Shown in pieces: positions 42,081-55,832 of a DNA stretch of 64,000 nucleotides. The stretch comes from Herbidospora galbida (GTDB lineage: Bacteria > Actinomycetota > Actinomycetes > Streptosporangiales > Streptosporangiaceae). Location of the stretch: assembly GCF_005233835.1 (NCBI RefSeq), contig NZ_SZQA01000018.1, forward strand, positions 62,001 through 126,000. The letters are read 5' to 3'. A program made the position numbers and the translations under genes. Position 1 is the stretch's first letter; each line of letters begins with the position of its first letter. Below the pieces are notes generated by a model. The model worked only from the letters and a program-made list of their open reading frames with translations, was not told where the DNA came from and searched no databases.

Positions 42081-42743
42081 TCAGCGCGTCCGGACCGCCG
42101 CGCGCAGCAGCATCACCCCGAAGATGACGGCGACGAGCGCCGCCGATCCCACGGCGGCCAGCATGGGCGGCACCCAGAACGCCGCCACCGCGCAGACCGC
42201 GCCCAGCGCCACCATCGCGACCCCGCCCCAGCGCTGCGACCGCTGCCAGGCCAGCGCCCAGCGGCCCCGCGCGTCGTCGGGTCCGACGGCCGACGGGGCG
42301 ATCTTCGGCAGCACGTTGCCGAGTCCCATGAGCAGCACCCCGAACCCCACCGCGACCGCCCGCTCCAGCGGGAAGCCGTGCCCGGCCGCGGTGAGCAGGA
42401 ACCCGGTGTGCACCACGATGAGGAACAGCGGCAGCAGCGTGAACAGCGTGTTCATGGTCCGGACCTGCGCGTCGGGGCTGGCCACCAGGCGGGGGTCGAC
42501 GTGCGGCTTGAGCCGGTTGCCGAGCTTCGTGGACGCGACCATGACCCCCGCGATGACCAGCAGCACCCCCGGCGTCGCGGCCACCGCGACGAGTTTGGGC
42601 ACCGCCGAGCCCGCCCGCGTCGGAGTGGGGTCACGGGTCACGACGAGGTCGGGGAGGGAGTCCCACAGCGCCACGCCCACGCCGGCCATGACGGCCACGC
42701 TCAGGGCGGACACCGCGATCCCCGTCCACGGCCGCTGGTTCAT
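42081..42743 (-). CDS. SdpI/DUF1648-like membrane protein (possible immunity protein)
   Basis: 220 residues with about six membrane segments; an N-terminal DUF1648-like region (GVALWDSLPDLVVTRDPTPT) and the SdpI-type middle GNVLPKIAPSAVGP near residue 143 are recognisable. SdpI gives immunity to the killing peptide SdpC in Bacillus and is paired with the ArsR-like SdpR, as here. Start overlaps the regulator stop (ATGA). Its closeness to the lanthipeptide locus may be coincidental. Confidence 0.75.
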   Translation of the reverse strand: MNQRPWTGIAVSALSVAVMAGVGVALWDSLPDLVVTRDPTPTRAGSAVPKLVAVAATPGVLLVIAGVMVASTKLGNRLKPHVDPRLVASPDAQVRTMNTLFTLLPLFLIVVHTGFLLTAAGHGFPLERAVAVGFGVLLMGLGNVLPKIAPSAVGPDDARGRWALAWQRSQRWGGVAMVALGAVCAVAAFWVPPMLAAVGSAALVAVIFGVMLLRAAVRTR

Positions 42744-43060
42744 ACCGCCTCCTTCATCGGCCGCAGGGCGCCCAGGCGGGCGACGGTGGCGTGCTCCTGG
42801 CTCATCAGGCCGAACACCAGGCAGAGCACGTCGTCCATGACGGAGGTGTTGAGCCGGTACCAGATCGTGGTGCCGTCGCGTTCGCCGACGATCAGGTCGG
42901 CGTCCTTCAGCACGTTGAGGTGTCCGGACAGAGTGGGCCGGGCGATGGTCAGGTGGTCGGCGATCTCGCCGGCCGACAGCTGGTCGTGTTCGTGCAGGAT
43001 CCGGAGGACCTCGCGGCGCCGGGTGTGCGCGAGTGCCTCGAACGTGCGGCCGGTAACCAT
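42740..43060 (-). CDS. ArsR-family regulator (SdpR-like)
   Basis: 106 residues with the ArsR winged helix: TRRREVLRILHEHDQLSAGE, IARPTLSGHLNVLKDADLI and VGERDGTTIWYRLN. No metal-binding Cys pair is seen. ATG 43060 has GGGGAG upstream. It is coupled to the SdpI-like gene, the same two-gene arrangement as sdpR-sdpI. Confidence 0.88.
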   Translation of the reverse strand: MVTGRTFEALAHTRRREVLRILHEHDQLSAGEIADHLTIARPTLSGHLNVLKDADLIVGERDGTTIWYRLNTSVMDDVLCLVFGLMSQEHATVARLGALRPMKEAV

Positions 43061-43158
43061 GGACAGCTCCCCGATCTGCCGGAAACTGATCACGACTCTA
43101 GGGAGACGCCGCACGGGGCACATCCGGCCCGCGACATGTGCGGGTCACGTCGTCGACC

Positions 43159-43198
43159 ATGACGATCGTCATTGCCGCAGATGGGCACAGATGGGCAC
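43159..43198. promoter_or_regulatory. Palindrome plus tandem repeat in the SdpR/kinase divergent region
   Basis: ATGACGATCGTCAT (43159-43172) is a perfect 14-bp palindrome. Seven bases further AGATGGGCAC occurs twice in tandem (43179-43198), within 50 bases of the kinase start. They may be binding sites for the SdpR-like regulator and for the response regulator. A TATGCT -10-like box lies just before the kinase ATG. Confidence 0.45.
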
Positions 43199-43243
43199 GT
43201 CTGCGCCCTGTGCCCCCTCCTCCGGCGCCGTTATGCTCCGCCT

Positions 43244-44473
43244 ATGCCGGACGTCATGCCATTGGCCCAAGTCGGGCCGTGGGTGAATTTCCCGCAGGGT
43301 CGTCCCCCGATCGTGTTCAAGATCTTCTTCTGGGGGTCGGCCCTCGTCAGCGCGCTGGTCGTGGGCATCAACCTGCTCGCGCTCGACCGCGTGGCCGGCG
43401 ACGGGCCGATGCGGGCGTTCTTCGTGCTGAGCGCGGTGGCGCTGCCGGTGACCTGCCTGCTCTGGCCGCTGCTGCCCTGGCAGGCGTCGGTGTCGCCGCT
43501 GCGGAAGACGGCCACCGTGGTCTTCCTCGGGTCGAGCCTGCTGCTCATCTCGGGCGGCGGGGTGGCCGCGCTGCTGGTGGTCAGCGTGGCGGTCGGCAAC
43601 GCGCTGGTGGTGTACGGCCTGCGCGGCGGCATCGCCTTCGCCGCCATCACCGGCCTGTTCTACCTCGTGCTCGGCCTGCTCAACCCCGGCCAGAGCCTGG
43701 TCGCCTCGATCGTGTCGGGCGCGGTCGTGCTGCTGCTCTGCCTGATCATCCTGGTCGTGGTGGTGGCGATGATCGAGGCCAACCGCCGCTCGGAGGAGAC
43801 CGCCGCCCTGCTGGCCGAACTGGAGGAGGCCCACGCGGAGCTGCGCGGATACGCCGACCGGGCCCGCGAGCTGGCCATCGCCGAGGAGCGCGCCCGCCTC
43901 GCCCGCGACATGCACGACTCCGTCGGTCACTACCTGACCGTCATCAACCTGGGGCTGAGCAACGCCCGCCGCTACCGCGACCGCGACCCGCAGGAGGCCT
44001 GGAACGAGGTGCACCAGGCCCAGGACCTCACCCGGGAGGCCCTGGCCGACTCCCGCCGCTGGGTCAGGGCGTTACGCCCGCTGCGCATGGACGGCAAACG
44101 CGGCGTCGAGGCGCTGGCCACCCTGGTCGAGTCGTTCGGCGGCGCCGACACCACGCTGACCTTCACCGCCCGCGGCGACTGGCCCGGCCTCGACGGCGAC
44201 CGGGAACTGCTGTGCTTCCGCGCCGTACAGGAGGGACTGACCAACGTGCTGCGGCACGCCAAGGCGGCCAACGTCGAGGTCACCCTCGACTGCACCCCCG
44301 AGAAGGTGACCATCGTCATCTCCGACGACGGCCGCGGCGCCGACCGCGCGGCCCGCACCGACGGCGCCGGCCTGCGCGGCCTGCGCGAACGGGCCGAAGC
44401 GGTCGACGGCACCGTCGAGTCGTGCACCGCGCCCGGCGAAGGGTTCACCCTCCGCGTGACGGTGCCCGCATGA
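43244..44473 (+). CDS. Two-component sensor histidine kinase (NarL/DesK-type, HisKA_3)
   Basis: About 409 residues: six membrane segments in the first 170 residues, a linker helix (SEETAALLAELEEAHAELRG), the HisKA_3 box ERARLARDMHDSVGHYLTVI with the phosphorylated His, and an ATPase domain with VQEGLTNVLRHAKA (N box) and DDGRGA. ATG 43244 lies seven bases after a TATGCT -10-like box, so the transcript may be leaderless. Coupled to the response regulator (ATGA). Confidence 0.88.
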   Translation: MPDVMPLAQVGPWVNFPQGRPPIVFKIFFWGSALVSALVVGINLLALDRVAGDGPMRAFFVLSAVALPVTCLLWPLLPWQASVSPLRKTATVVFLGSSLLLISGGGVAALLVVSVAVGNALVVYGLRGGIAFAAITGLFYLVLGLLNPGQSLVASIVSGAVVLLLCLIILVVVVAMIEANRRSEETAALLAELEEAHAELRGYADRARELAIAEERARLARDMHDSVGHYLTVINLGLSNARRYRDRDPQEAWNEVHQAQDLTREALADSRRWVRALRPLRMDGKRGVEALATLVESFGGADTTLTFTARGDWPGLDGDRELLCFRAVQEGLTNVLRHAKAANVEVTLDCTPEKVTIVISDDGRGADRAARTDGAGLRGLRERAEAVDGTVESCTAPGEGFTLRVTVPA

Positions 44474-45126
44474 TCCGTGTGCTCCTCGTGGACGACCAGC
44501 TCCTCATGCGCGAGGGCCTGCGCAAACTGCTGGAGATCGAGCCCGGCATCGAGGTCGCCGGGGCGGCCGACGACGGCGTGGAGGCGCTCGACCTGCTCGA
44601 CCGGCTGCCGCCGGAGCACTATCCGCACGTCGCGCTCATCGACGTGCGGATGCCGCGGATGAACGGGGTCGAACTGGTCGCCCGGCTGCGCGAGGAGCAC
44701 CCCGACGTCGCCCCGGTGATGCTGACGACCTTCGACGACGACGACTTCATCTTCGGCGGGCTGCGCGCCGGCGCGCAGGGCTACCTGCTCAAGGACATCG
44801 CCCCCGACCAGCTCGTCGACGCGATCGGCCGGGCGGCCAGGGGCGAGACCGTGCTCGGCGGCCCGGCCGCCGAGCGGGTGGTGGCCGCGCTGCGCGGCCT
44901 GCCCGACGAGCCGGCCCGCGACGACGAACCGGCCCCCCTCTCCGATCGCGAGTTCGAGGTCGCGCAACTGGTGGGCGAGGGCGCGTCGACCCGCGACATC
45001 GCCAGGAAGCTGCACATCACCACCGGCACCGCCAAGAACCACATCTCCAGCTGCCTGCGCAAACTCGGCCTGCGCGACCGCACCCAGCTGGCGGTGTGGG
45101 CCGTTCAGCACACCGGCGAGGCCTGA
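44470..45126 (+). CDS. LuxR/NarL-type response regulator
   Basis: 218 residues: receiver domain with phospho-acceptor Asp at about 58 (ALIDVRMPRMNG), conserved Lys in YLLKDIAP, and a LuxR helix-turn-helix (LSDREFEVAQLVGEGASTRDIARKL...). Coupled to the kinase. It converges on the exporter operon of the lanthipeptide locus, in the place RamR occupies in the SapB (ram) cluster, and may control the LanKC promoter repeats. Confidence 0.9.
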   Translation: MIRVLLVDDQLLMREGLRKLLEIEPGIEVAGAADDGVEALDLLDRLPPEHYPHVALIDVRMPRMNGVELVARLREEHPDVAPVMLTTFDDDDFIFGGLRAGAQGYLLKDIAPDQLVDAIGRAARGETVLGGPAAERVVAALRGLPDEPARDDEPAPLSDREFEVAQLVGEGASTRDIARKLHITTGTAKNHISSCLRKLGLRDRTQLAVWAVQHTGEA

Positions 45127-46805
45127 GCTCCGACGAGTTCGGCGTAGAGCGGCGAGGCGGCGACCAGCGTCTCGTGCCGTCCGAACCAGGCCCGCGCGCC
45201 GTCGAGCAGCAGGATCTCGTCGGCCCGCAGCGCCGAGGCGGCCCGGTGGGCGATCACGACGAGCGTGCCGGGCCGCTCCCGGAAGGCCCGCTCGGCCCGC
45301 GCCTCGGCGGCGGGGTCGAGATGGCAGGTGGCCTCGTCGAGCACGACGAGGCGGGCACGGCTCGCGTGGGCGCGCGCGAGGGCGACCAGCTGCCGCTGCC
45401 CGAGCGACAGCGCGTCCGGATCGAGCCGGGCGTCGAGGTCGTCGCCCAGCAGGGCGTCCGCGCCGACCGCGCGGACCGCCTCGCGCAGTTCCGCGTCGGT
45501 GGCCTCCGGGTGCAGGTAGCGGAGGTTGTCGCGGACCGTGCCGGTGAAGACGTAGGACTCCTGCGGCAGCAGCGCGACGTGTTCGCGGGCCGGGGGCGAC
45601 CCGCCGACGGTGACGAGGCCGCCGTCAGGGGCCCCCAGCCCGGCCAGCAGCAGGGCGAGGGTGGACTTGCCGATGCCGCTGGGACCGATGACGGCCAGGT
45701 GGCCGCCGTCGGGGACGTGGAAGCTCAGGTCGCGCAGGACGGGTTCGGCGCCGGGGTCGTAGGCGAAGGTGAGCCGGTCGGCGCGCACCTCCGCCGTCGC
45801 CGGAGCCGGCGCCGTCGCGGGCGGGGCGGCCGGGGTGGCCCTGATCGTCTCGGTCAGCCGGCCGAGTGTGACCGAGAGCTGCAGGCCCGAGCCGCCGACC
45901 AGGTCGGTGAGGGTCTTCATGGCCGGGTCGAGGTGCATCGTCAGGTAGGTGGCCGCGCCGATGACCAGGCCCACGGTCAGCCCCCGGCCGAGCAGCCACG
46001 GCGTCGCGACGATGAGCGACAGCAGTGGCAGGTAGCCGCCGATCGCGGTGACGACGCTCCGCGCGGCCAGCGCCCGCGCCATCCGCTGCTGGGCGTGCCG
46101 TTCGGCCGCCATGGCCGCGCCCACCTCGGCGGTGACCTGGCCGGCGCGGCCGAACGCGGCGATGTCGCGGTGCCCGGCGAACGCGGCGGCGGCGTCGGCC
46201 GAGACCCGCTCCCCCGCCGTCAGCGCCGCCCGCTGCCGCCGCGCGAGGCTGGGCAGCAGCAGCCCGAACAGCGCCGCCGACACGATCACCGGCGGGATCG
46301 TCACCCAGACGACCTCCCCGGCCAGCGCGCTCAGCCCGAACACGGCCGCCGCCGTGGTGAAGACGAACCGGCGCAGCCCGTTCAGCAGAGCCGTCACGGT
46401 CCGGCGCACCGACTCGACCTGCTGGGTGATCCGCGCGGTCGACGCCCCGTCGGGCAGCGCGTGTTCCGGCCCGTGGACGAGTCCCGCCACCACCGCCCGC
46501 AGCAGGTCGTCGCGTAAGGGCTCGATGACCGAGCCCAGCAGCGGATAGGTGAACCGCGACGCCACCGCCCCCACGGCGTACGCCGCCAGCACCCCCGCCA
46601 GCCACCACAGCCCGGTCGCCAGGTCGCCGGCGAGGAAGCCCCGGTCGACCGCCCTGGCCATGAACAGCCCCGACGCCATCGCGGGCAGCGCCTCCACCGC
46701 CGACCAGAACCCCAGCAGGACGAGCTCCCGCCTCCTGGCCCGCAGCGACCGGCCGAGCAGCCGGAACCCGGTTTCACGCCCGGTGTCACGCCCGGTGTCA
46801 GACAT
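45105..46805 (-). CDS. ABC exporter subunit (fused membrane and ATPase domain), RamB-like
   Basis: 566 residues: six-helix membrane domain, then the ATPase with Walker A GPSGIGKST, a degenerate signature LSLGQRQL and a normal Walker B LVVLDEATCHLD. The degenerate signature complements the degenerate Walker B of the partner at 46798, the mark of a heterodimeric exporter with one active site. It overlaps the partner by eight bases and the convergent regulator by 22. It likely exports the lanthipeptides encoded upstream. Confidence 0.85.
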   Translation of the reverse strand: MSDTGRDTGRETGFRLLGRSLRARRRELVLLGFWSAVEALPAMASGLFMARAVDRGFLAGDLATGLWWLAGVLAAYAVGAVASRFTYPLLGSVIEPLRDDLLRAVVAGLVHGPEHALPDGASTARITQQVESVRRTVTALLNGLRRFVFTTAAAVFGLSALAGEVVWVTIPPVIVSAALFGLLLPSLARRQRAALTAGERVSADAAAAFAGHRDIAAFGRAGQVTAEVGAAMAAERHAQQRMARALAARSVVTAIGGYLPLLSLIVATPWLLGRGLTVGLVIGAATYLTMHLDPAMKTLTDLVGGSGLQLSVTLGRLTETIRATPAAPPATAPAPATAEVRADRLTFAYDPGAEPVLRDLSFHVPDGGHLAVIGPSGIGKSTLALLLAGLGAPDGGLVTVGGSPPAREHVALLPQESYVFTGTVRDNLRYLHPEATDAELREAVRAVGADALLGDDLDARLDPDALSLGQRQLVALARAHASRARLVVLDEATCHLDPAAEARAERAFRERPGTLVVIAHRAASALRADEILLLDGARAWFGRHETLVAASPLYAELVGAQASPVC

Positions 46806-48462
46806 GGATCGGCTCCCGTTCCGCGCCGAACAGGCCGCGATAGTCGGCCTGTTCGAGCAGGTCGGCGTGGGGGGCGACGGCGCGGATCCCGGTGCCGTCG
46901 AGCCAGATGACCAGGTCGGCGCGGGCGGCCAGGGAGGCGCGGTGGGTGGCCACCAGCCGGGTCGCCGGATGCGCCGCCAGGGCGCGGCTGATGTGCAGTT
47001 CGGTCACGCTGTCGACGCTGGAGACGGCGTCGTCGAGGAGCAGCAGCCGGGCGGGGCGGGCCAGCGCCCGCGCCAGGCCGAGCCGCTGGCGTTCCCCGCC
47101 CGACAGGGGCGCGTCGGCGCACGGGGTGGCGTATCCGGCGGGCAGGCGGCGGACGAACGTGTCGGCCCTTGCCAGCCGCGCCGCCTCCTCAGCGCCGCCG
47201 CCCGATCCGAACCCGATCGCGTCGGCGACGGTCCCCGGCAGGTACGCGGGCCGTTCGAAGGCCCAGCTCACCGCGCCGGCCAGGGCGGGCGGCGACAGGT
47301 CGCGCAGCGGCACGCCGTCGAGCCGCACCTCGCCCTCCTCGGGGTCGAGCAGGCGTCCGGCGAGCATGAGCAGGGTGGATTTGCCCGCGCCCGACTCCCC
47401 CACCACGGCGGCCATCGCGCCGCCGGGGATCGTGAGGTCGGCGTACCGGCCGGGACCGCAGACCCCCCGGAAGGTCAGTTCGCCGGGACCGGCGGGCAGC
47501 TCCCGGGTGCCGCGCGCGGTCGCCCCGACGGTCAGCACCTCGGCGAGGCGGCGGGCGCCGGCCCGCGCCTGGGCCAGCGCCATGAAGGCGTTGGCCTGGT
47601 TGAACAGGCCGAAGGCCATGCCGGCGTAGGCGGTCGCCGCGGTGAACTGGCCGGGGGTCAGCGAGCCCGCCAGCAGCGTGTATCCGGCGGTGGCCACCAC
47701 CGCGACCTGGATGAGCGGCAGCACCAGCGACGCGTGCAGGTTCATCCGGCCCTGCAGCAGCCACGACGCCCGCCCGGCGCGGTGGAGCTCGGGCAGGCCG
47801 GTGAGGATCCGGTCGATCTCGCGGCCCTCTGCCCCGGCGGCGCGGACGCTGCGCAGGCCGGTCAGCACCTCGGTCAGCCGGCCCGCGATCGAGCCCTGGA
47901 CGGTCATGTAGTCGGTCATCAGCGGCGAGGCGCGCCCGACGAAGAACCGGATGATGAGGGTCACGATCGGCGCGCCGACCGCGAAGGCGACGCACAGCCG
48001 CCAGTCGATCAGGAACAGCGCGACCAGCGCGCCGCCCGACATCAGCAGCGACCCGATCCACCCGGCGGCCAGCGGCACCACCGAGGCGACCTCGCCCGTG
48101 TTGGTCAGGAGCCGGGTCGTCAGGTCGCCGGTCGAGAACGCCGCCCGTTCGCGCACCCCGAGCCGCAGCACGTGTCCGAGCAGGTCACGCCGCAGGCCCA
48201 GCACGAGCGTGTTGACATGCCATGGCGACACGAGCAGGCTGGCGATGTCAAGGAGGATCAGGACGGCCACCAGTCCGGCCAACCGGCCGACGGTGCCGAG
48301 ATCACCCCCGGTGGTCTGGGCGTCGACGGCCGCGGCGAGCAACGCCGGCAGGGCGAGTGCGGCGGCCGAACGGCTCAGGTCGAGGAGCAGCAGCACGACG
48401 CTCCAGGCCGGGTTGGCCGTCACCGTCTCGATCAGCAGCCGGGCGGCAGGGGTGCGCGGCAT
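46798..48462 (-). CDS. ABC exporter subunit (fused membrane and ATPase domain), RamA-like
   Basis: 554 residues: membrane domain followed by an ATPase domain with Walker A GESGAGKST, signature LSGGERQRL and a Walker B reading LLLLDDAVSS, where Asp replaces the catalytic Glu. This matches the inactive side of a heterodimeric exporter. No peptidase C39 domain is present, so leader removal must be done by another enzyme. GGAGG precedes the ATG. It follows the five precursor genes after a hairpin. Confidence 0.88.
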   Translation of the reverse strand: MPRTPAARLLIETVTANPAWSVVLLLLDLSRSAAALALPALLAAAVDAQTTGGDLGTVGRLAGLVAVLILLDIASLLVSPWHVNTLVLGLRRDLLGHVLRLGVRERAAFSTGDLTTRLLTNTGEVASVVPLAAGWIGSLLMSGGALVALFLIDWRLCVAFAVGAPIVTLIIRFFVGRASPLMTDYMTVQGSIAGRLTEVLTGLRSVRAAGAEGREIDRILTGLPELHRAGRASWLLQGRMNLHASLVLPLIQVAVVATAGYTLLAGSLTPGQFTAATAYAGMAFGLFNQANAFMALAQARAGARRLAEVLTVGATARGTRELPAGPGELTFRGVCGPGRYADLTIPGGAMAAVVGESGAGKSTLLMLAGRLLDPEEGEVRLDGVPLRDLSPPALAGAVSWAFERPAYLPGTVADAIGFGSGGGAEEAARLARADTFVRRLPAGYATPCADAPLSGGERQRLGLARALARPARLLLLDDAVSSVDSVTELHISRALAAHPATRLVATHRASLAARADLVIWLDGTGIRAVAPHADLLEQADYRGLFGAEREPIHV

Positions 48463-48490
48463 GATGAGATGTCCTCCGATAAGCGGCGGG

Positions 48491-48517
48491 AGCCGGGGCG
48501 TTACGGTCGCCCCGGCT
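48491..48517 (-). terminator. Hairpin between precursor array and exporter genes (attenuator)
   Basis: AGCCGGGGCG and CGCCCCGGCT form a perfect 10-bp stem with a 7-nt loop, between the last precursor gene and the exporter. It probably ends a fraction of transcripts so that precursors are made in excess over the exporter. Confidence 0.7.
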
Positions 48518-48548
48518 CACGCTGACGGTCACGTCACATGCGGGTCGC

Positions 48549-48713
48549 TCACATGCAGACGACGAGGCTCGCGGTGCTCGTGGTGAGGCAGGCCGAGAAG
48601 CTGGCGGTGCTGCCGAGGCAGACGCCCCCGGCGCTGACGGTGCTGTAGATGCTGTTCGGTCCGGCGCCGGCGTCGCCGGAACCCTGGCCCTGGAGGTTGA
48701 GGACGTATCCCAT
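48549..48713 (-). CDS. Class III lanthipeptide precursor E (54 aa, three ring motifs)
   Basis: MGYVLNLQ leader box, Gly/Ala-rich spacer, then a core beginning near NSIY. Ring motifs: STVSAGGVC (Ser-x2-Ser-x4-Cys, one residue longer than usual), STASFSAC and STASLVVC (both Ser-x2-Ser-x3-Cys). It ends Cys-Met. The longest of the five peptides, with three rather than two predicted rings. No database check was possible. Confidence 0.85.
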   Translation of the reverse strand: MGYVLNLQGQGSGDAGAGPNSIYSTVSAGGVCLGSTASFSACLTTSTASLVVCM

Positions 48714-48743
48714 GGTCTTCTCTTTTCTGGTGAGGGAGATGGA

Positions 48744-48872
48744 CTAGCAGAGGGCGAGGCTGGTGGTGGAGAAGCAGGTGACCGGGCTCAGGAAGCTGAG
48801 CCAGGAGTCGGCGCCGTCGCCGGGGGCCTCGGCGGCGACCTTGGTGGCCTGCAGGTTCAGGACGTAGCTCAT
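48744..48872 (-). CDS. Class III lanthipeptide precursor D (42 aa)
   Basis: Leader box MSYVLNLQ, acidic/Ala-rich linker (KVAAEAPGDGAD), then ring motifs SFLSPVTC and STTSLALC, both Ser-x2-Ser-x3-Cys; the peptide ends on the last Cys. AAGGGAA lies upstream of the ATG at 48872. Same design as its neighbours. Confidence 0.87.
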   Translation of the reverse strand: MSYVLNLQATKVAAEAPGDGADSWLSFLSPVTCFSTTSLALC

Positions 48873-48896
48873 GAGTGGGGTTCCCTTCTCGGGGTC

Positions 48897-49031
48897 TCAG
48901 GTCCAGGGGCAGAGGAAGAGGCTGGCGCCGCTCTGGCAGTTGATCCAGCTGTTGGTCGAGAACGACAACGCCGCGTTGCGGTCGGCGTGGGCCGAGCGGG
49001 TGGTGTTCTGGAGGTTCAGGACGTAACCCAT
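48897..49031 (-). CDS. Class III lanthipeptide precursor C (44 aa)
   Basis: Leader box MGYVLNLQ, a linker with TTRSAHADRNAAL, then ring motifs STNSWINC and SGASLFLC, both Ser-x2-Ser-x3-Cys. It differs from the others by a three-residue C-terminal tail (Pro-Trp-Thr) after the final Cys. The ribosome site (GAGG) is weaker than those of its neighbours. Confidence 0.86.
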   Translation of the reverse strand: MGYVLNLQNTTRSAHADRNAALSFSTNSWINCQSGASLFLCPWT

Positions 49032-49050
49032 GGGTGGTGCCTCGCTTTCG

Positions 49051-49170
49051 CTAGCAGATGGAGATGCTCCAGTTGGAGAAGCAGAGCGACAGGCTGGGCG
49101 TGCTGGGCATGAGCGCGGTCTGGTCGGCCGACTCGGCGGCGATGCCCTGCAGGTTCAGGACGTACGACAT
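49051..49170 (-). CDS. Class III lanthipeptide precursor B (39 aa)
   Basis: Leader box MSYVLNLQ, linker GIAAESADQTALMP, then ring motifs STPSLSLC and SNWSISIC, both Ser-x2-Ser-x3-Cys; the peptide ends on the last Cys. GGAAAGGAA precedes the ATG. Same length and layout as precursor A but a different core. Confidence 0.88.
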   Translation of the reverse strand: MSYVLNLQGIAAESADQTALMPSTPSLSLCFSNWSISIC

Positions 49171-49186
49171 GGCGGTTCCTTTCCGG

Positions 49187-49306
49187 TCAGCAGAGGAAGA
49201 GGGTCAGCCCGCTGATGCAGAACGACGGGCTGAGGCTGGACGGGCCCATGAGCTGGGCGGGTTCCTTGGAGACCTCGCGGGCCTGGAGGTCGAGCACGAA
49301 GGCCAT
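49187..49306 (-). CDS. Class III lanthipeptide precursor A (39 aa)
   Basis: Leader box MAFVLDLQ, linker EVSKEPAQLMGP, then ring motifs SSLSPSFC (Ser-x2-Ser-x3-Cys) and SGLTLFLC (Ser-x2-Thr-x3-Cys), ending on Cys. SapB has the same SSLS-x3-C arrangement in its second ring. It starts 40 bases after the LanKC stop with AAAGGAA upstream. The LDLQ box is the recognition element for class III kinase-lyases. Confidence 0.9.
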   Translation of the reverse strand: MAFVLDLQAREVSKEPAQLMGPSSLSPSFCISGLTLFLC

Positions 49307-49346: not shown

Positions 49347-51932
49347 TCACCTCCCCGTGAACGGCCGCAGGAAGGGCAGCAGCTCCAGGGAGGGGTCACG
49401 GAGCGCGGCGAGCGCGTGGAGGATGCCGGCGGCGCCGGTGCCGAAGTCCATCGACAGCCGCATCAGCTGATCGCCGGGGAAGGCGACCTCTCCGCGCAGC
49501 CCGACCATGTGCAGCTTCAGCCGCTCGCGCTTGACCGCGATCAGGCCGTCGAGGGTCGGGTCGCCGGGGTAGTGGTCGCGCAGGTGGTTCAGGAAGCCCA
49601 TCTGGCCGGCCGTGCCGTAGAAGACCATCGGGCAGATGTGGAACTCGGCGTGCCCGGCGCGGCGGAGCCCGTCGAGCGAGGTGAGCAGGTCGTCGCGGCG
49701 CCGGTGGCGCAGCAGCTCGGCCAGCGCCAGCCCGACCCCCGCCGACCCGAGCCCGATGTACGGCATCAGCCGCCACCCCTCGTCGACCAGCAGCGAGTCG
49801 CCCTCGGTCGTGGTGCAGCAGTCGAGGTCGAGCCTGATGGCGTGCTCGGCGGCGTCGAGGTGGGCGGGGTCGCCGGTCTCCTCGTAGAGGCGGGTGAACA
49901 GCAGTGACGAGCCCGAGGTGCCGTGCAGCAGGCCGGCCTTGCGGTGGCGGCCGGTCTCGTCGACCGGTTTGGGGGGATCGTGGCGCAGCCGGTCGGCCAG
50001 GTCGGCGGCGATCTTGATGGCGAGGTCGCGGCGGCCCGGGTCGTCGAGTTTCCTGGCGAAGTAGAGCTGGGTGAGCGCGACGCCGCTGACGCCGGTCATG
50101 ATCTCGTCGGCCATCTGCGGGGTGCCGCTCCGCTCGATGACGCCGAGCACCTCCAGGGCGGCGTCGCGGTTGCCGATCTCCTCGAAGGCGTAGGCGATGC
50201 CGTGGAGGCCGTCGTAGAGGCCGAGGCGGTGCAGGCCTTTGTGCTCACGGACCCGGCTGAGCAGCCATTCCTCGTGTTCCTCGCGGCGGCCGTAGCCCGC
50301 CTTGGCCATCGCGTAGAGCACGCCGGCCGCGCCGTAGCCGAAGCCGAGACCGCCGAGGTTGAACTGCTCGACGTCGCCGGGGAACAGCCGGTCGTCGCGG
50401 TCGGGGGTGGCGCTGGCCCAGACGGTCTTGGCCACGGAGTCCTCGATCTCCCGCCAGTCGCCGCTCTCGATCAGCCGGGCCGAGCGGGCCATCTGCTCGG
50501 GCGTGCCGGCGAAGTCGGACGGGCCCAGGTCGAGCAGGTCGAGCACCTGCTCACCCCAGCCGGCCGGCACCGGGAAGCGCTGCTCCACGAACCGCACGAG
50601 CGCCTCGGCGCGGGTGCTGTCGAGCGTGAACAGCACGGTCAGCGGCACGAACGGGGCGACCTTCAGGCAGCCCAGCGCATAGCGGTCGGCCGCCAGGGCG
50701 TCGCGCTGGTCGGGCGGCACGAAGCCGGGGGCGCCCATGCCGATCCGCTGCTCGGCGGCGGCGTAGGTGGACAGCTCGAAGTCGATCAGCTTGACCCTGC
50801 CGTCTTCGGTGATCATCACGTTGTTGGGGTGGAGGTCGCCGAACGCGATGCCGCGTTCGTGCAGCCGGCCGACCACCTCGACGATCTGGTCGGTGGTGTC
50901 GACCGCCCAGGCGGTGAACTCGGCGATCTCCTCCTCGCTGGGGTCGGCCTTGATGAGGGGCGCCCGCAGGATCATGCGCTTGTTGAACGTGACGCCGTCG
51001 ACCAGTTCCTGGACGAGGAAGTGGTGCTCCCAGAGCTGGAAGTAGTCGTAGACGTCGACCACCGCGTCGAGGTCGGCCAGCTTGCCGAGGAACTCGTGCT
51101 CGCGCTTCAACCGGCTGACCGCGTCGCGGCCCTTCTGGTCGAGCCCGGCGCCCGGCCGGGCCTCCTTCAGCACGACCTTCCGGCCGGTGGCCTTCTCGAC
51201 GGCGACGTAGAGCCCGCCGCCGTTCGAGAAGTGCATGGCCGACTCGATCTCGTACGGGAAGTCGGCCGGCGCCTCGTTCGACTGCCGCTCCTCCAGATGG
51301 GGCGCCAGCCAGGCCGGCGGCGACACCCAGTCGGGCACGTAGAAGACCGGGTCACGCCGGTCGACGACGAGCTCGCCGTCGGGGTCTTCGATGGCCATCG
51401 CCGGCTCGCCGAGCTCGTTGCGGGTCATCCGCTCGACGAAGCCGCCGTAGCGCAGGTAGAGCGGCCCGTCCTTCCAGCGCAGGTCGGACAGGATGTAGGG
51501 ACCGCCCATGCCTTCGAGCAGCGGGCCGAGGTCGTCGAGGATCTCGCGCAGCCGGTCGTCGTCGGCGGGGTAGATCGTCATGAACTTGCCGCTGCCGCCG
51601 CGGTCGGCGTACTTGAGGTTGCGCCCGATGAAGGCCGCCTCGCTGACCAGGAACTTGAAGCTGACCTTCGCGTCGAGGCAGTAGCGGCTCACGATGTCGA
51701 GCACCTGCTGGGCGTTCTCCCGCCGGGCCGAGACGTGGATCTTCCACCCCTGGGGCGGCAACTCGACCGAGGCGCACATGACGTTGAACCACGGCCCCTT
51801 CCGCCCGGTCACCCAGCCTTCCGGGGCCGCCTCCCCGGCCTGCCGATAACCCGCCTGCGTCGCGGCCCAGGTGTGGGACTCGTCGTAGAAGAGGCGATCG
51901 GCGAAACAGTACTCGATGTATTGGAGTTTCAT
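49347..51932 (-). CDS. Class III lanthipeptide synthetase LanKC (RamC/AmfT-like)
   Basis: 861 residues from ATG 51932; the family begins with an aromatic Tyr-Cys-x-Ala-Asp stretch like YIEYCFADRLFYDE. The N-terminal phospho-Ser/Thr lyase domain (about 1-215) is followed by a kinase domain: VVLKEARP (ATP Lys about 256), GDLHPNN (about 365) and IDFE (about 383). The C-terminal LanC-like domain (about 490-861) has LYDGLHGIAYAFEEIG and GLLHGTSGSS but lacks the zinc-binding Cys-Cys-His set, as in class III. It phosphorylates, eliminates and cyclises Ser/Thr and Cys of the peptides encoded just downstream. Confidence 0.95.
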   Translation of the reverse strand: MKLQYIEYCFADRLFYDESHTWAATQAGYRQAGEAAPEGWVTGRKGPWFNVMCASVELPPQGWKIHVSARRENAQQVLDIVSRYCLDAKVSFKFLVSEAAFIGRNLKYADRGGSGKFMTIYPADDDRLREILDDLGPLLEGMGGPYILSDLRWKDGPLYLRYGGFVERMTRNELGEPAMAIEDPDGELVVDRRDPVFYVPDWVSPPAWLAPHLEERQSNEAPADFPYEIESAMHFSNGGGLYVAVEKATGRKVVLKEARPGAGLDQKGRDAVSRLKREHEFLGKLADLDAVVDVYDYFQLWEHHFLVQELVDGVTFNKRMILRAPLIKADPSEEEIAEFTAWAVDTTDQIVEVVGRLHERGIAFGDLHPNNVMITEDGRVKLIDFELSTYAAAEQRIGMGAPGFVPPDQRDALAADRYALGCLKVAPFVPLTVLFTLDSTRAEALVRFVEQRFPVPAGWGEQVLDLLDLGPSDFAGTPEQMARSARLIESGDWREIEDSVAKTVWASATPDRDDRLFPGDVEQFNLGGLGFGYGAAGVLYAMAKAGYGRREEHEEWLLSRVREHKGLHRLGLYDGLHGIAYAFEEIGNRDAALEVLGVIERSGTPQMADEIMTGVSGVALTQLYFARKLDDPGRRDLAIKIAADLADRLRHDPPKPVDETGRHRKAGLLHGTSGSSLLFTRLYEETGDPAHLDAAEHAIRLDLDCCTTTEGDSLLVDEGWRLMPYIGLGSAGVGLALAELLRHRRRDDLLTSLDGLRRAGHAEFHICPMVFYGTAGQMGFLNHLRDHYPGDPTLDGLIAVKRERLKLHMVGLRGEVAFPGDQLMRLSMDFGTGAAGILHALAALRDPSLELLPFLRPFTGR

Positions 51933-51980
51933 GCGCACCGTCCTGGGACCGTTTACCGGGGCTTCGGAGGAACTGATTAA

Positions 51981-52066
51981 TACGGTACTCGGCGGCGTTT
52001 GAATGTCCAATTACGGTACGTGTCATTCATATTCTCGGGGGCCCGGTTCAGACGGGCGTTTGAATG
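51981..52066 (-). promoter_or_regulatory. LanKC promoter with two families of direct repeats
   Basis: On the minus strand TTGGAC (52005-52010) and TACCGT (51982-51987) are spaced 17 bases and fit a sigma-70-type promoter. TACGGTAC occurs at 51981-51988 and 52012-52019 (31 bases apart), and GGCGTTTGAATG at 51994-52005 and 52055-52066 (61 bases apart). Copies overlap the -10 and the spacer, which suits binding of a response regulator. Confidence 0.6.
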
Positions 52067-52568
52067 CGCGCGGGAATCGGGTGTGCGCGGTCGGTTATTT
52101 CGGCCGCAGGCTACCGCAGGTTACGGAACTCTGTTGCGGTTGGCCAGCACCGCAGGTAGAGTACTCAACTTTCGGCCGGTGAGGTTGCGGAGAGTTACGC
52201 GGGCGGAGAAAAAATCATGCGTTTTGCTCCGCACCGAAAGACCGAAAAACCGCCCGGGCCGACGAGAGCCTATTGCTTCGGCGCAACACGAAAGAAGGGC
52301 GGCCGGATTATTTCGCCACTCGGCGAAACACCGGCGCCGACGCTTCCGTGATCCGGCTCACGCAATTTCGGAGCCGGGCGAAAAACGAACCACCCGCTAT
52401 TTCGGCGGCCGGTGAAACATCCATTCTTGAGATAAGCCCGAGCCCGGCCACACCCGGAAACCGGCCTGCTGTCGGCAAGGCCAGAGGTCATGCGTCAGGG
52501 AGGCGCCGGCACGCGGGTCAGATGGCAGAGCGACCCGCGCCGAGGCGGCTTCGCCGTGGCAGGGCGAT
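52067..52568. other. Intergenic region without a convincing gene
   Basis: Upstream of the LanKC promoter. Several short frames exist on both strands but none shows codon bias, a ribosome site or a recognisable product. The first 350 bases are poorer in GC than the rest of the window. I see no RNA gene or operator here. Confidence 0.6.
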
Positions 52569-52740
52569 ATCGCTTCCCGCCGCAAAGGCGCGGGGGAACG
52601 GCGGGCTTGGGCATTCGCATCGCTCCCCGCCGCAAAGGCACAGGTCGAACGACAGGCCGCTCGTATCGCTCCCCGTCGCAAAGGCGCAGGTCGAACGACA
52701 GGCCAGGCCGCTCGCATCGCCTTCCCCAGCGCAAGGTGAG
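52569..52740. repeat. Four degenerate intergenic repeats of 46-51 bp
   Basis: Units beginning at 52569, 52619, 52665 and 52716 share ATCGCTYCCCGYCGCAAAGG followed by GCRCAGGTCGAACGACAGGC in the middle two copies. The first is divergent and the last truncated. Periods are 50, 46 and 51 bases, so it is not CRISPR (no constant spacing or clean repeat borders). It may be a family of dispersed intergenic repeats. Confidence 0.6.
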
Positions 52741-52897
52741 GTCATGGGTCAGGTGGCTGGGTCTGGTTCCTTGCCAGGCCTCCTCGGCGTTGCGGGGCGA
52801 GGCGGGAGCGGGTGGTTGGCGCCGGATGCGGTGGGGAGCAGGAGCGGTGGGCGGGGTTGGGGGGCGGAGCCGTAACGGAAGAAGGGTGGGAAATGGT

Positions 52898-53093
52898 GGA
52901 AGCCGCCCGGTACGGACCGGGCGTGCTTCTTGGGTGAGGCGTAGTTGCTTCGCGAGCAGGGTGGAAAACGGCGGAAGCCGCCCGGTACGGACCGGGCGTG
53001 CTTCTTGGGTGAGGCGTAGTTGCTTCGCGAGCAGGGTGGAAAACGGCGGAAGCCGCCCGGAACGGACCGGGCGGCTTCCTGGGTGGGACGTGG

Positions 53094-53110
<17 letters not shown>
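52898..53110. repeat. 75-bp tandem repeat derived from the 3' end and terminator of acnA
   Basis: Units start at 52898, 52973 and 53048, exactly 75 bases apart; the third is the native aconitase terminator plus stop region. Each earlier copy contains an altered hairpin (GGAAGCCGCCCGG and a mispaired partner) and the sequence GCTTCGCGAGCAGGG, which copies the last aconitase codons. Bases 52884-52897 look like the edge of an older copy. Confidence 0.85.
53048..53079 (-). terminator. Rho-independent terminator of acnA
   Basis: GGAAGCCGCCCGG (53048-53060) and CCGGGCGGCTTCC (53067-53079) form a perfect 13-bp stem with a 6-nt loop, 15 bases past the aconitase stop. Confidence 0.85.

Positions 53111-55832
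<2,722 letters not shown>

Follow-up and report, generated by a model that had tools for sequence, protein, structure and literature searches.

An ordered set of five class III lanthipeptide precursor genes behind one LanKC in Herbidospora galbida, conserved together with a probable self-protection pair

Why does a single class III lanthipeptide synthetase (LanKC) stand in front of five precursor genes with five unlike cores, and do these five belong together or does each go its own way? The question is raised by a stretch of 64,000 nucleotides of the soil actinomycete Herbidospora galbida (contig NZ_SZQA01000018.1, positions 62,001 to 126,000), hereafter called the window, in whose own numbering all positions are given. 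A reading made from the sequence alone had called five consecutive minus-strand genes of 39, 39, 44, 42 and 54 codons behind this LanKC as class III precursors, with varied cores. Sequence comparison across the order does not support an array whose cores vary freely: the five precursors are paralogues in a given order, which seven genomes retain as a set. Additionally, their conserved surroundings, which that reading had left unmentioned (two exporter genes, a two-component pair, an SdpR/SdpI-type pair and a hairpin), are more informative about function than the precursor count.

Five precursor genes and their synthetase

The five open reading frames (ORFs), P1 to P5, are all found at the place originally assigned to them:

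49347..52010, minus strand: LanKC, class III lanthipeptide synthetase (lyase, kinase, cyclase), with matches to NF038151, RamC_N, Pkinase and LANC_like
49187..49306, minus strand: P1, 39 residues, leader box FVLDLQ, rings SSLSPSFC and SGLTLFLC, over the Pfam RamS cut-off
49051..49170, minus strand: P2, 39 residues, leader box YVLNLQ, rings STPSLSLC and SNWSISIC
48897..49031, minus strand: P3, 44 residues, leader box YVLNLQ, rings STNSWINC and SGASLFLC, tail PWT
48744..48872, minus strand: P4, 42 residues, leader box YVLNLQ, rings SFLSPVTC and STTSLALC
48549..48713, minus strand: P5, 54 residues, leader box YVLNLQ, rings STVSAGGVC, STASFSAC and STASLVVC

The gaps running from the LanKC stop codon through P1 to P5 measure 40, 16, 19, 24 and 30 nucleotides, every gene starts with ATG downstream of an A/G-rich stretch, and the guanine plus cytosine (GC) fraction rises from 0.42-0.62 at the first two codon positions to 0.93-1.00 at the third. 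All five carry the announced leader box [FY]VL[DN]LQ, as FVLDLQ in P1 and YVLNLQ in the others, and an LxLQ-type box is likewise present in 35/35 precursors over the seven array loci considered below. The translations also bear out that the five cores are different. Calculated for the whole, unmodified peptides, the monoisotopic masses are 4185.10 (P1), 4147.96 (P2), 4845.29 (P3), 4364.11 (P4) and 5160.39 (P5). Eleven ring motifs are present (two in each of P1 to P4 and three in P5), ten of which have the predicted Ser-x2-Ser/Thr-x3-Cys form; the first motif of P5, STVSAGGVC, departs from it (Sx2Sx4C). Over the seven loci together, 73 of the 77 rings have the x3 spacing and 4 the x4 spacing. 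In P1 to P4, the two ring starts lie exactly 9 residues apart.

That P1 to P5 might be chance ORFs was ruled out by scanning random sequences. When a leader box close to the start and two x3 ring motifs are both required (strict pattern), the window returns exactly P1 to P5 and no further ORF, and 60 random sequences of 64 kb with its first-order Markov composition return nothing. A looser pattern, which gives a mean of 0.78 and a maximum of 3 matches per random sequence, recovers P1 to P5 plus one plus-strand shadow ORF (48987-49112) lying over P2 and P3; with this shadow ORF removed ahead of counting, the loose scan holds no sixth precursor in the window. The leader pattern at the DNA level occurs at 12 places in the genome, five of them in the array (a backward control gives 4), and no convincing precursor was seen at the other seven; the first pattern tried gave none.

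Curated models see this array poorly. The comparison with RamS and other class III models proposed by the sequence-only reading succeeds for P1 (25.1 bits to Pfam RamS, PF19402, cut-off 24.3) and falls short for the rest: P2 misses NF038154 by 0.1 bit (21.9, cut-off 22) and has no Pfam match, P3 matches RamS and NF033212 under both thresholds, P4 reaches 23.6 of the 24.3 bits needed for RamS, and P5 scores 17.3 bits to NF038159 (cut-off 30). The five are real genes, even though four of them lie under the curated detection thresholds, and such arrays may therefore be undercounted.

The assignment of the synthetase to class III, as originally called, is firm: LanKC scores 980.8 bits to the class III model NF038151 (cut-off 575), and 394.8 bits to the class IV model NF038150, under its cut-off of 650. 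Six of seven residues mutated in the lyase of ThurKC (K65, H67, K94, K117, D152 and R163; the seventh, R191, lies outside the mapping) correspond to K90, H92, K119, K142, D176 and R187, and the DFE kinase motif is kept at position 410. It is nearly certain that the biosynthetic part is a class III system. In ThurKC, the leader helix is bound between the lyase and kinase domains via hydrophobic residues and a Gln (PMC10604976; this and all other papers are cited from excerpts), a binding mode that fits the VLxLQ box of P1 to P5, and by this analogy the window LanKC would bind the leader box in a similar way.

The array in relatives and its loss in Herbidospora

Among 345 genomes of the order, surveyed for LanKCs at E <= 1e-225, the array is present in seven, belonging to four genera, with LanKC identities of 61-100%; arrays behind a LanKC weaker than this threshold could escape the survey. 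Each of the seven loci has five precursors in the same order with all rings kept, and the reading frames, on whose conservation in relatives the sequence-only reading had let its case depend, are conserved. That five is an unusual number was correctly foreseen: out of 55 LanKC loci, 48 hold one to three precursors (28 with one, 14 with two and 6 with three) and the remaining seven hold five. This count covers 1.5 kb either side of the LanKC at the best-matching loci, with candidates that overlap the LanKC or lie on the minority strand dropped. It includes, at L038, the precursor of the neighbouring LanKC of the same genome (L081), and the P5 start of L033 was placed 24 nucleotides downstream of the longest reading. 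Only the best few LanKC candidates per genome were scored and the loci of the best matches read; within the family, E <= 1e-120 is reached by a LanKC in 176 of 297 genomes, and the reading covered the 30 best of these loci. A scan of named genomes found only two loci. Two other arrangements were seen in passing: two adjacent LanKC genes, each followed by its own different precursor (L089:9733-15775, genome G027), and a pair of intact-looking precursors next to a LanKC whose reading frame contains one TGA (L037, G061:C33:15687-18323).

Compared position by position, the cores of P1 and P5 match clearly and those of P2 moderately; those of P3 and P4 match weakly across the deepest split between the seven loci. 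P5 has a three-ring gene at position 5 in the six other loci as its counterpart, and these form one tree group with a support of 96/100, the sole supported group in a tree of 35 short peptides that has too few columns and carries a long-branch warning. The recurrence of the ordered five, with its neighbours, across four genera suggests a joint use of the five peptides.

Within Herbidospora, the site between a sugar-binding-protein gene and the aconitase gene is readable in seven genomes, and the cluster is intact in two of them (the present one and G002). In G004, pieces of the SdpI-like and LanKC genes survive, in G005 pieces of the first exporter gene plus a weak SdpI-like trace, and in G006 one piece of the SdpI-like gene, while no cluster remnant was detected at the site in G001 and G003; no precursor or leader box is left, in any frame, in these five genomes. 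The remnants of the three sister genomes lie at the same site, at L061:7589-8401, L091:1543-1701 and L092:1897-2329. Since the debris differs among genomes, separate deletions are suggested; one early inactivation followed by different decay may also have occurred. A second LanKC, 45-46% identical and accompanied by one Gly-rich precursor, is present in all seven Herbidospora genomes. It forms a conserved class III locus (G000:C28:11127-13535, read as L009 and L063, and L003-L008). Between the window LanKC and the aconitase gene, two copies of a 20-base stem-loop lie 75 bases from each other (52904-52998), and the ORF translations at 52490-53131 are repetitive too.

Conserved surroundings and what they suggest about function

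Downstream of P5, the following features accompany the array:

48490..48518, minus strand: GC-rich RNA hairpin in the P5-T1 gap, z -3.35 (tool run on a longer stretch)
46798..48462, minus strand: ABC exporter half 1 (T1), with ABC_membrane and ABC_tran
45105..46805, minus strand: ABC exporter half 2 (T2), with ABC_membrane and ABC_tran
44470..45126, plus strand: NarL-type response regulator, with Response_reg and GerE
43172..44473, plus strand: sensor histidine kinase of HisKA_3 type, hydrophobic N-terminal half, probably membrane-bound
42740..43123, minus strand: ArsR-fold repressor, SdpR-like, with the SdpR family model NF033789 as its best NCBIfam match
42081..42743, minus strand: SdpI-like membrane protein (by profile comparison with the SdpI family), probable immunity protein

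Both exporter halves, the kinase, the regulator and the SdpR-like repressor are present in all six other array loci, although their arrangement is not everywhere the same: in the clade with 61-63% LanKC identity, the kinase gene lies ahead of LanKC and the regulator gene beyond the exporters. A domain scan found no peptidase domain in T1 or T2. A strong GC-rich stem occupies the P5-T1 gap of all seven array loci (z -1.8 to -5.8), with stem sequences that differ between the two clades; it would probably act as a transcript stabiliser or a partial terminator, giving a higher dose of precursors than of exporter. A sigma-70 promoter scan, which is uninformative for this organism, found none.

The SdpR-like and SdpI-like genes overlap in the window. 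Because a Pfam SdpI search of the whole genome gave no match, homology was tested by comparing profiles: the SdpI-like profile aligns with a reference profile built from four SdpI-family proteins of the same bacterial family at 98.2% probability (pairwise E 4.6e-14, 178 columns), and the two controls, built on the N-terminal part of the histidine kinase, reach 0.2% each. Being homologous by profile, yet without a Pfam match, the protein is named SdpI-like and not a family member. It recurs in all six other array loci (in L083, from N. harbinensis, its gene lies ahead of LanKC and the repressor gene on the opposite side of the cluster) and is absent from L063 and L087-L090, five further class III loci of which 18-20 kb were read. 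In Bacillus subtilis, protection against the SDP toxin comes from the membrane protein encoded by sdpRI, the other product of which is a repressor (PMC6818787), and by analogy the window pair probably protects its producer. The SdpI-family genes of the bacterial family include those at L107-L120.

Taken together, we consider it reasonably probable that the locus encodes a fixed five-component secreted class III lanthipeptide system with self-protection, which would hence probably be antibacterial. In this mechanism, the single LanKC would bind the common leader box of all five precursors, phosphorylate and eliminate their Ser/Thr residues and close two rings in P1 to P4 and three in P5, these being lanthionine or labionin rings (the sequence does not decide). 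The products would be exported by the two ABC half-exporters, with the leaders trimmed by a protease from outside the cluster, and all five would be made and act outside the cell; the two-component pair would probably switch the cluster on and the SdpR/SdpI-type pair probably shield the producer. The presence of the latter pair favours an antibacterial, membrane-directed role for at least one product over a purely morphogenetic one, and the maintenance of all five together most likely reflects ensemble action or separate, non-redundant tasks. The sequence itself shows the genes with their order, ring motifs, conservation and neighbours, as well as the debris of lost copies; chemistry, export, regulation, immunity and joint action are inferred from it.

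Several observations weigh against this reading. The repressor reaches 92.5 bits to NF033789, 7.5 under the curated cut-off of 100 (even so the best of its 26 matches, the next standing at 75.9 bits). The window SdpI-like protein has no Pfam match at all, the cut-off of SdpI (PF13630) not being reached; three of its four homologues match PF13630 at 14.8, 17.3 and 21.2 bits (cut-off 28.2) and the fourth matches DUF1648 at 13.0 bits (cut-off 28.7). SdpI-family genes are not rare in the family either (31 of 150 genomes). Exporter homologues also adjoin the second LanKC (L063), and a kinase/regulator-like pair lies near one outgroup LanKC (L090), so that only the combination is special; no protease is found among the cluster genes scanned. 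Same-position matches fall to 56 of 96 (24 by chance) once ring residues are masked and P5 is excluded, P3 and P4 then hardly matching across clades, and in L031 the cores at positions 2 and 3 are swapped. The ratio of nonsynonymous to synonymous substitution rates (dN/dS) of the precursors is 0.66 between the present locus and L031 (0.94 for the cores) and 0.53 between L031 and L032 (0.60 for the cores), with 0.23 for LanKC in both pairs, and such high values at middle distance are compatible with core diversification. Finally, according to a review, the antimicrobial action of class III peptides from actinobacteria is limited (PMC12328550).

How far do other explanations account for the same data? 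The peptides could form a morphogenetic, SapB/AmfS-like surfactant set that coats aerial hyphae or spores, with the SdpR/SdpI-like and two-component pairs regulating or buffering membrane effects; P1 passing the RamS cut-off fits this, and so does the order LanKC, precursors, two ABC genes and NarL-type regulator, which resembles that of ram/amf loci. We regard it as unlikely: the second, single-precursor LanKC locus in every Herbidospora genome could fill that role, one would not expect a morphogen to be as dispensable as a five-gene cluster that is intact in two of seven genomes and reduced to debris in three, and the SdpI-like protein is tied to the array and missing from the five other class III loci. 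A possible explanation, to which we give somewhat more credit, is that each peptide is an independent product with its own task or target and that the set is kept for no other reason than the usefulness of each. The cores do differ and are each conserved at short range, and physical or functional interaction has left no sign in the data; against it, the occasional loss of a single precursor would be expected, whereas arrays of four or six are absent from the 55 loci and whole-cluster loss does occur. Seven arrays are few. The least probable option, in our view a very improbable one, is a prochlorosin-like library in which a promiscuous LanKC serves freely diversifying precursors, as five unlike cores in one genome and the core dN/dS against L031 might suggest. 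Returning to the five-component system, its strongest form would be an obligate lantibiotic of five ring-locked pieces that assemble jointly into a membrane-active whole, dosed through the hairpin and neutralised by the SdpI-type protein. With co-conservation as its basis, we hold this form to be doubtful; if true, it would, as far as our searches reach, have no predecessor either among class III systems with a dedicated immunity module or among lanthipeptide ensembles that have more than two fixed partners.

Comparison with known systems

The SapB/AmfS systems (the RamS class III clusters, ram/amf) resemble the window array in LanKC, the LxLQ-type box, the Sx2Sx3C rings, the two ABC genes and the NarL-type regulator, and P1 passes PF19402. 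The window differs from them in its five unlike precursors, its sensor kinase and its SdpR/SdpI-type pair, and the ring starts of P1 to P4 are 9 residues apart against 10 in RamS-like peptides such as that of L064. The peptides at L041, L042 and L047, which are of the labyrinthopeptin type, share with the window different-core precursors behind one LanKC and ring starts 9 residues apart; they come as two precursors with an extra Cys close to the C-terminus, where the window has five precursors and a single Cys.

Outside the actinobacteria, the ThurKC/andalusicin system of Bacillus thuringiensis is also a multi-precursor class III system, sharing the six lyase residues and the DFE motif (PMC10604976). 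According to the same source, its seven precursors ThurA1-A7 are nearly identical (the ThurA1 and ThurA7 cores nevertheless being termed divergent), its cluster includes a methyltransferase and its host belongs to the Firmicutes. One Bacillus cereus cluster has 13 identical class III precursors, and in the same large survey 57% of class III precursors are the sole one in their cluster (PMC7268733). The prochlorosins resemble the window array in that one synthetase serves many unlike cores, and differ in their class II LanM and 29 precursors (PMC12328550); compared with them, the window array is a fixed ordered set on which purifying selection acts between near relatives. The sdpRI genes of B. 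subtilis likewise form an operon of a repressor and an integral membrane protein beside a secreted toxic peptide, which is there an SdpC-derived toxin and no lanthipeptide (PMC6818787), and in the window the immunity role would follow from this likeness only. In the literature searched, which leaves most subscription journals and all supplements outside, no paper was found that names lanthipeptide and SdpI together, nor a description of a five-precursor class III array, which a published table may still list.

Multiple class III precursors as such are known; the present array combines five unlike products of one synthetase, in a conserved order, with exporters, a sensor pair and an SdpI-like protein that travel along. 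It offers a natural setting for testing how a single LanKC copes with five substrates, whether lanthipeptides can act in ensembles larger than two, and whether SdpI-type proteins protect against lanthipeptides.
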